From the NCBI GenBank assembly GCA_029204225.1, contig CM055113.1, positions 9,574,364 to 9,638,363 on the forward strand: DNA of 64,000 nt, in the 5' to 3' direction. A program made the position numbers and the translations under genes. The DNA comes from Diphasiastrum complanatum (Eukaryota; Streptophyta; Lycopodiopsida; Lycopodiales; Lycopodiaceae). How positions within the stretch are numbered: position 1 is the stretch's first letter; each line of letters begins with the position of its first letter. The notes beneath the pieces are model-generated. The model was not told where the DNA came from and searched no databases. It saw only the letters and a program-made list of their open reading frames with translations. Of the stretch, positions 43,601 through 46,600 are shown one piece after another.

Positions 43601-46600
43601 ACAGTAGCAATGGATCGGGCATTGACTTATGCCGATTTGGATTGTACACCAAGAGAGTTTGAGGAAAGAGACATGATGTTTCTCAGGATTCCAAAGGACT
43701 TGAAAACCCTTAAGATAGGGAAGTGTTATAAGTTGTCACCCAGATATTGTGGACCTTGGAAAATTGTCTAGAAGACTAAGGGCGTTGCTTATTAATTGGA
43801 TTTGCCTGTTGATTGTAAGGTTCATCCCGTGTTTCATTTTTCATGCTTAAAGAAGGTTTGTGATAACCTTTTGGCCGATGGCCTCGTATTGTTTCAGGAG
43901 CATGCGGAGGTGAGACATTGACCAACAAGAGTATTGGACCTGTTGGAATATCAATCCACATGCTAGAGAGAACCATCAAACAGGGCGGATAGCTCAGTGG
44001 TAGAGCATCCCATCCGGTATGAGGGAGGTCCTGGGTTGGAATCCTAGTCTGTCCATCCATATTATGATTTATGGATTTCGAACATGGTATCAGAGCCAAG
44101 TTAGACCTAACAGTTCATGGTGTCAAAGCCATGGTTAGGTGGCCCAAGTTGTAGGGCAAGTGACAGCTAGGACCCCAACCAAGTGTGGCTTGAGGGGGGG
44201 TGTTGGAATATCAATCCACACTCTAGAGAGAACTATCAAACAGGGCGGATAGCTCAGTGGTAGAGCATCCCATCCGGTATGAGGGAGGTCCTGGGTTCGA
44301 ATCCTAGTCTGTCCATCCGTATTATGATTTATGGATTTCTAACAGGACCGAAGTCAGAGACGATTCCGCAATCGTCTGCTTTGGGAGTACTTGGTTGCAT
44401 GACACCCTCTTAGTGATGCTACCTGGGAGATCGCGCATAAATTGCATGTATAGTATCCAGACTTTGCCATTGAGGATGATGTCAGCTAAGGAGAGAAGGG
44501 ATGTCACATGTACTTTGAATGTCTTTGCCTATTGTAAATTGTAAATTGTAATTATTAACTATAAATAGCTAAGTTGCTGGTCTACGGAGACAATTGTAAA
44601 TTGCAATATAAAAATTAGTTGTAGTGACTAATTCCGAGATGACCTCTATCACGAGCTCACTAGGACACTTGGTCCAATGTATGAGTGTGTGACACATGTC
44701 AGACGGTCCTCCTTGCTAGCATATGTGTCAGGGTACTGCCAAGTGGCAAGTGTCGGCTGTGCATGGCGCTTGCCATGTGTTGACATTAGGATGTGTCATG
44801 GTTAAGGGATGGTCGAGGGGATATAGTGTGAGCCTTGCTTGGCATTCCCTATCTTATTCCTATGTAGCTATGGTTTGGGAGGAGACTTGTAGCAGAGCTC
44901 TCATGTGTGCTTGTTAATCATGTATAGGTACTTGAGATTAACAAAGACGGATTTGTTGAGTAATTCTGTGTGTTTAATTAGGATATTGTGAGCTTGTGTG
45001 CAACAAAAGGTCACTAAAAAGATCTTTCTGAAGCATAAAAGATGTTGAGGAAGCCCGCTTTTTATGGCTGAATTTCTTTTAAGAGTCTCACTTATGCATC
45101 TTTATGAGTCATATTATGTCAAATTCATTTATGACCTTTTATGAGAACAATGTTTTTTTTGAGTACTGCAGGATTCAATCTTGTTTTGAAGTATGTGAAG
45201 GAATCTTCTGATTAAATCCTCTAAGACTCAAATTTGTACCTTGTTTTATACAAGAAAAATATGGACCTTGCTTTTGATCAGCAGTCTGGTCACATCTTCA
45301 AGGCACCTTGCACCTGCTTTGTTTGTTAGATAACTGATGGTGAGCAAGATAATGGTCATAAACTGATTGCGAAGTTCTATGATGTTCAGTAACTTTTTCC
45401 ATATGGCTAAAACCTAGTCAGTAATTCTTTTCCACAATTCTAGGCTACAATAGCAATCATTCATCATTTAAAAAATGGATGGTGCCATCTTCATTGTCAC
45501 CTTGCACCTTTGTTTTGTAGAAATGTTGAAATAACTTCAGCTGTCCAAGAGAATTGATCACAAACTGATAACTTAAATCTGTACATTTTACTTGTCACCT
45601 TAGTTGGACGTTGATTCAATTGCATCTTCTTTGCTCTGGTAATAAGGGATATATCAAAAGACGGTTGGTTTATTTATCTGTAGTGAGTCCTGTTCTTGTT
45701 TAATCCGGTACTGATCTAGCAAGCTGAGGGAGCAAATTGTAGATTTTGATCATGGTTTATCAACTTGGGTAAAAATGGAAGACCTCAATTTCAGTGTCAA
45801 TTCAAAAGGAGTTCACTATTTGGTAAGTTTCGACATATAGTCATACAGTATCCATTCTTCTGACAGTGTAAGAAAGATGATGTTTGAACATTTTGTGATT
45901 TTCAGGTGGAGTCGGGAAAACTTGTTCTAGAAGAAGCAGATTTTGATCTTGGGCATGAGTTGGAAGGACTTGTCGATATGTTTTCAGTGCAGTGTGTCGA
46001 TCATAACATAGAAATTGTCCTAGACTTGGCTGGTACCGACTATCCTATCTACTGTATTTCCTTAATGCAAATATTGTTCAGTCTTTGAACTTTTTCAGTT
46101 ATTTGAGTTGTCCTAGTTCTGCCTTCATGCACATCTTTCTCCTGTTCCCCTAGCAAAGCTCAACTAAGAAATGTGTAAGTGCTATCTCTGTTCTAATTCC
46201 TTGATAATATTTGTTTATTTTATTTTTTATTGGTCAGAATAGTGATGACCTATAATATTTTTTTGGAAAATGATCTGTTTTCAAGTTGTTTATGTGCTAA
46301 TTGTAAAAAGTTTTCACAGATGACATACCTCAATTTGTTCGAGGAGATTCTGCTCGGACTGTGCAGATATTTGCGAATCTGATCTCCAACTCTATCAAGT
46401 TTACTTCTTGTAGGCCACTATTCTGATCAACTATTTTATTGCATCCATTGTTTATTTTTCAAGCTAAAAAGCAAGAGTCTTATTGAAGGTAGAGTAAAAG
46501 ATCTTACTAGGGAGTTGATACTCAGTAGTAAATTGTAGATTAGAAGGTCAAATGAATTACATTGCTTAGCTACTCTGTCTATGGCTATAAAAGCTAGGAC

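Follow-up and report, generated by a model that had tools for sequence, protein, structure and literature searches.

The window, a stretch of 64,000 nucleotides of Diphasiastrum complanatum DNA, contains a complete 404-bp LTR element (43941–44344) that belongs to one of two high-copy Helenus-type families found in this species. Our best explanation, to which we assign a probability of about 0.8, is a Helenus-type TRIM (a miniature LTR element) whose RNA is made by Pol III and which is copied by Copia-type enzymes acting in trans, the tRNA-like unit of each LTR serving as a promoter and not as a working tRNA. Transcription of this family (family 1) by Pol III is what we infer from its sequence. 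The initial annotation had proposed a TRIM analogous to Cassandra with a promoter-like LTR unit of the tRNA type, and both the anatomy of the window copy and the occurrence of the unit in most sampled copies of the family support that idea.

The element lies on the forward strand between two copies of GGACC (43936–43940 and 44345–44349, neither assigned a strand), which were identified from the sequence and from empty-site copies (see below). Its LTRs (43941–44084 and 44201–44344) are each 144 bp long and differ at 6 positions (95.8% identity); the 5′ LTR runs from TGTT to AACA. They enclose a non-coding interior of 116 bp (44085–44200) that opens with TGGTATCAGAGCC immediately 3′ of the 5′ LTR and closes with the polypurine tract GAGGGGGGG (44192–44200), which adjoins the 3′ LTR. 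The primer binding site (PBS, 44085–44098) abuts the 5′ LTR and is presumably complementary to the 3′ end of the initiator tRNA-Met. The element overlaps no ORF of 120 aa or longer. The initial annotation had listed the LTRs, PBS, purine tract, interior and target duplication as a full TRIM, and all of these parts are confirmed.

Each LTR contains a tRNA-like unit (43983–44055, LTR positions 43–115, and 44243–44315), which ARAGORN names tRNA-Thr(GGT). A comparison with Rfam placed both units above the gathering score of RF00005 (45.3 bits for the 5′ and 49.8 bits for the 3′ unit; gathering score 29). The units are 73 nt long, one more than first given. The motif at LTR positions 50–60 (43990–44000 and 44250–44260) is what we take to be the A box; the B-box-like motif at LTR positions 94–104 carries one change in the 5′ LTR (44034–44044) and is intact only in the 3′ LTR (44294–44304), where it had originally been reported. 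The folding energy of the unit alone is unexceptional (z −0.55; 50 of 200 shuffles fold equally well). By eye, there is no obvious TATA element in the 42 bp upstream of the unit within the LTR. An Rfam scan of the window at gathering scores gave two tRNA matches only and no 5S rRNA in the LTRs, and identity with Cassandra was rejected on this basis.

The target of the insertion is a decayed Ty3/Gypsy-type element on the forward strand (41439–44641, limits uncertain), recognized from repeats, a weak Pfam match and flank matches. Its possible LTR remnants (41439–41578 and 44502–44641) are 82% alike, and the match to Pfam SH3_Tf2-1 at 43610–43768 scores 19.4 bits, below the cut-off of 30. The 300-bp 5′ flank of the TRIM has at least 39 other genomic matches (the best 40 of 973 candidates were scored). 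Eight of these 39 related Gypsy copies were examined, and in all of them the sequence continues unbroken across the insertion point, where GGAC[C/T] occurs once and not twice as GGACC does in the window; this is the empty site of the window insertion. The matches to the two flanks overlap by exactly the 5 bp in seven of the eight copies, the exception being L164, where the 5′ flank match stops one base short. In one copy (L166) the match to the 3′ flank is limited to its first 60 bp.

Several other features of the window are recorded here as observations. Frames at 32651–33469 and 61972–63840 are possibly parts of a single gene for a sensor histidine kinase, extending over 30 kb. The latter frame has a sub-threshold response-regulator match and a relative with histidine kinase domains. 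A 622-aa frame of the window has one protein match (E ≤ 0.001), a D. complanatum protein with 39% identity over 41% of the query, which makes it a relative and not the same gene. Long GA dinucleotide tracts are present at 10340–10480 and 25990–26170.

The initial annotation had called for a genome search with the LTR. In the 1.74-Gb genome, a 21-base LTR-start pattern (up to 2 mismatches) occurs at 1,838 places (914 + 924), and a 23-base pattern covering the PBS and interior start (up to 2 mismatches) at 970 places (492 + 478); the reversed-pattern controls were 0 for both. A positional sample was then defined by the exact 21-mer places on contig C1, unranked by whole-element similarity. It comprises 86 of the 88 such places, in 56 loci; the remaining two are in L023, which belongs to the best-match set (L001–L040). 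By a loose criterion, 29 of the 56 loci are complete LTR-interior-LTR elements. Another 14 are truncated but contain interior, seven are arrays or rearranged, three are solo LTRs and three are LTR fragments. Arrays reach five LTRs with four interiors (L030, L039). Upstream flanks are shared by 13 of the 56 loci, in six groups, so that the C1 loci are not all independent. Among 20 loci carrying the interior start no autonomous partner was found: 19 are family 1 with at least a partial LTR, and L121 has 46 interior bases only.

Target site duplications (TSDs) of 5 bp predominate in both samples. The best-match set includes 35 elements with two near-complete LTRs, reduced to 29 after removal of shared flanks (the 29 still include both L003 and L027, which look like duplicates of each other, as their flanking pairs agree). 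Perfect 5-bp TSDs flank 24 of these 29, two have one mismatch and three have neither. By the same strict criterion the C1 set contains 21 elements, 20 of them flank-unique, with perfect TSDs in 12, one mismatch in five and neither in three. Cross-pairing of unrelated flanks gave 0/812 for the best-match and 0/380 for the C1 set; together with the zero counts of the reversed patterns, this rules out chance resemblance. LTR pairs of equal length differ at 0–6 positions in the best-match set (median 3). In the C1 set the differences number 2–7 in ten pairs and 56 in one, which is probably shifted by an indel (median 5). The tRNA-like unit is retained in copies with 0–2 LTR differences.

It had been considered at the outset that most members of the family might lack the unit, which is not the case in the C1 sample. 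After 17 partial pieces were set aside from 105 C1 LTR pieces, 88 LTRs spanning positions 30–125 remained, and ARAGORN called a tRNA in 75 of them. Most of these calls are Thr-GGT (54), and the others spread over nine further anticodons; across the C1 copies the predicted anticodons are those of Thr, Pro, Ile, Ala, Ser, Leu and Arg. The A box TAGCTCAGTGG is exact in 70/88 LTRs and has at most one mismatch in 85/88. The corresponding numbers for the B box GGTTCGAATCC are 53/88 and 81/88, and ATCAAACA is found exactly, directly 5′ of the unit, in 75/88. Deletions have removed the tRNA-like part from the middle LTR of L060 and from the 3′ LTR of L081. These deletions (L060:1760–1841 and L081:861–920) remove roughly just the unit, and the L081 join is apparently at a 4-bp microhomology.

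At L006 a family 1 copy (TSD GTGGT) lies within the LTR of a second TRIM on the opposite strand, which has a tRNA-like unit of its own. By eye, L006:1243–2700 can be read as family 1 within family 2, within a third, degenerate tRNA-like element, and a further degenerate pair of tRNA-like units is seen at 2498–2685 of the same locus. A search with the second TRIM of L006 gave at least 85 matches (the best 40 of 675 candidates were scored) and defines family 2, with 153-bp LTRs and a 73-bp interior. Perfect 5-bp TSDs are present at nine of 11 family 2 loci examined; L132 and L133 share one TSD and are probably a single event. Genome-wide there are 689 family 2 LTR starts (331 + 358; 26-base pattern, up to 3 mismatches, control 0). 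At all 11 loci ARAGORN recognizes the tRNA-like unit in one LTR or both, mostly with an unnameable anticodon. A family-neutral pattern (B box, 15–45 nt, then PBS core) gave 680 genomic matches (332 + 348; control 0), and the 100 of these 680 that were listed all belong, by eye, to families 1 and 2. Aligned with each other, the family 1 and family 2 units are identical in 62 of 75 columns (83%), anticodon arm included, which argues that both families probably inherited a single module and did not arise by two separate tRNA captures.

The unit is not the slowest-changing part of the LTR; it diverges faster than its flanks in both samples. Mean divergence in 82 best-match LTRs is 0.016 in the unit vs 0.005 on either side, and the most variable columns are position 55 in the A box and position 98 in the B box. 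In the 88 C1 LTRs it is 0.036 in the unit vs 0.018 and 0.023 on the two sides (A box 0.017, B box 0.043). The copies therefore give no sign of selection on the boxes after insertion. Variable LTR columns in both samples are mostly C-to-T or G-to-A, a pattern that would be expected from decay of methylated sites. Only the presence of the boxes in young copies shows that source copies keep them.

The fast divergence of the unit and the variability of positions 55 and 98 are what one would expect if the same TRIM were transcribed by Pol II from a weak LTR site, the unit being a relic or holding, for example, a silencing or insulator factor. We regard this as unlikely, though it is the alternative to be taken most seriously. 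The unit fills half of the 144-bp LTR in most sampled family 1 copies, including those with 0–2 LTR differences, and recurs at every family 2 locus examined; moreover, the 42 bp in front of it offer no obvious TATA element to the eye.

Very improbable, in our judgement, is that the unit is (or is also) a working tRNA-Thr gene, so that the element spreads functional tRNA genes. Such a role would fit the name tRNA-Thr(GGT) given to most copies by ARAGORN and the 45–50 bits to RF00005, but 61 of the 63 best tRNA candidates in the genome (of 84,948) score 51–75 bits. When the unit was compared with 20 tRNA genes, drawn from 20 score classes among these best 63, identity was 52–68%; the nearest were Arg-TCG and Cys-GCA (68%), and a genomic tRNA-Thr(GGT) gene was 67% identical. 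Such low identity and an anticodon that varies between copies argue against tRNA function, and with the score range of the best candidates they led us to reject it. The same doubt is voiced for Helenus generally by Kojima (2024; PMC10886601). The 84,948 are first-look candidates, and tRNA-like repeats, TRIMs included, may inflate tRNA counts. For annotation this is a warning: tRNA finders call at least 100 tRNA genes in these elements, which are probably not tRNA genes. Finally, a one-off tRNA gene or SINE inserted into one LTR and spread by gene conversion or assembly duplication, hence no family trait, would suit the loci that are duplicates by their shared flanks (6 of 35 complete elements, 13 of 56 C1 loci) but is refuted, to near certainty, by the 1,838 LTR starts, the tRNA calls in 75/88 LTRs of a positional sample and the complete insertions with unique flanks (29 and 20), of which most have TSDs of their own.

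If family 1 is indeed a Pol III-transcribed TRIM, its life cycle is probably as follows. TFIIIC bound to the A and B boxes of the 5′ LTR would recruit Pol III, and the genomic RNA would start near LTR position 38–43, at CAAACA just 5′ of the tRNA-like unit. The CAA motif is said, to go by the title of a study by Yukawa et al. from 2000, to matter for plant tRNA genes. The RNA would traverse the interior into the 3′ LTR, the initiator tRNA-Met would prime the minus strand at the abutting PBS, strong-stop DNA would jump to the 3′ LTR and the purine tract would prime the plus strand. Reverse transcriptase and integrase of the Copia type, supplied in trans, would then make and insert the copy. We assume that 5-bp TSDs and an iMet-like PBS point to Copia, and their combination here suggests Copia as the mobilizing source. 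Fungal Helenus elements, which have 5-bp TSDs, are likewise linked to Copia in the account of Kojima (2024; PMC10886601). The PBS of a Copia-like element at window position 21657 is identical to the TRIM interior over 17 bases (the PBS and a few more). By eye, 21187–22600 contains the start of this Copia-like element; ACTTTCACA looks like an LTR end there, and a gag-like frame runs from ∼22280. The element is a possible mobilizing partner.

The two families differ in their T-runs. TTTT is absent from 36/36 two-LTR copies of family 1, and the first TTTT 3′ of the copy is met after 2 to 891 bp in 30/36 and beyond the fetched 300 bp in six. A Pol III RNA of family 1, if made, would thus end in flanking DNA. 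Shuffled sequences also lack TTTT in a fraction of 0.29 and Markov sequences in 0.58; its absence is not significant alone and could be due to chance. Family 2, in contrast, has TTTT near the end of the 5′ LTR (146–149 of 153 for the family), at position 145–146 in 10/10 copies; eight of the ten have it in the 3′ LTR as well. Pol III, if used, would thus have to read through the first LTR. We tentatively suggest, as a speculation that we hold to be less probable than its negation, an old and recently active lycophyte Helenus lineage in which one module, already distant from every cellular tRNA compared with it, drives Pol III RNA in at least two families that terminate it differently. If true, the genomic RNA would end in a 3′ tail that varies and derives from the host, which would be unusual for the life cycle of an LTR element; the contrast between the families merits testing. 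D. complanatum is the second plant host, again a lycophyte, for a class whose 2024 description drew mainly on fungi and animals. Both families are numerous and fairly recent in a chromosome-scale genome, which makes the central claim of the class, Pol III transcription from a tRNA-like LTR promoter, testable in a plant.

Among known systems Cassandra, reportedly described by Kalendar et al. in 2008, resembles the window element: it too is a TRIM of plants, both of its LTRs contain a Pol III-type unit, and tandem LTR-interior arrays occur. The arrays of Cassandra are described in PMC7215508, and its Pol III transcription is given as validated by Kojima (2024; PMC10886601). Its LTRs carry 5S rRNA, however, whereas those of the window element carry a tRNA-like unit from which Pol III use is deduced. 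Ajax (PMC10886601) is likewise described as a TRIM whose LTR contains a small-RNA promoter and whose TSDs are 5 bp long, but it is 5S-derived and nemertean. Ordinary plant TRIMs share size, structure and occurrence in lycophytes (Gao et al., 2016, PMC4717578, where the Selaginella row of a table closes with 8 as the total); the main text of that paper uses none of the terms tRNA, Pol III and polymerase III. tRNA-derived SINEs are similarly short and non-coding with a tRNA-like Pol III promoter, but have no LTRs, PBS or PPT and insert by target-primed reverse transcription, as set out in PMC10886601.

The closest match is Helenus, the name given to TRIMs with tRNA-like LTR sequences by Kojima (2024; Biology 13:119, PMC10886601); the initial annotation knew of no tRNA-type counterpart of Cassandra, and this publication supplies one. 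As described there, most Helenus elements are <1 kb and have A and B boxes in both LTRs, a PBS and a PPT. According to the same account, plant and fungal families have 5-bp TSDs, solo LTRs occur, a genome can contain several families, and one zebrafish family forms tandem arrays; it adds that Pol III promoter function cannot be concluded without experiments. The window element likewise is a TRIM with two LTRs, 404 bp (<1000 bp) and no coding capacity. It has a tRNA-derived LTR sequence (45.3 and 49.8 bits to RF00005; 75/88 C1 LTRs) and, at the interior ends, a PBS (found with the interior start at 970 genomic places) and a PPT, and TSDs of 5 bp are perfect in 24/29 and 12/20 insertions, with an empty site in 8/8 copies. 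TAGCTCAGTGG and GGTTCGAATCC agree with the Helenus boxes TRGCY...YGG and GGTTC. The difference lies in the host and the dimensions: D. complanatum, with LTR 144/interior 116 bp and LTR 153/interior 73 bp, as against Selaginella moellendorffii (LTR 120 bp, interior 85 bp), the only plant host given in Kojima's account. Diphasiastrum does not occur in the main text of that paper, and a literature search, mostly at the level of titles and the beginnings of abstracts, found no report of such an element in this genus among the titles listed. By the structure tested, both families appear to be of the Helenus type and resemble the Selaginella family in design. The Helenus-type design is already known; these families are new members of it, and what merits following up is the extension to a second lycophyte with two families of high copy number and the way in which these differ in their T-runs.
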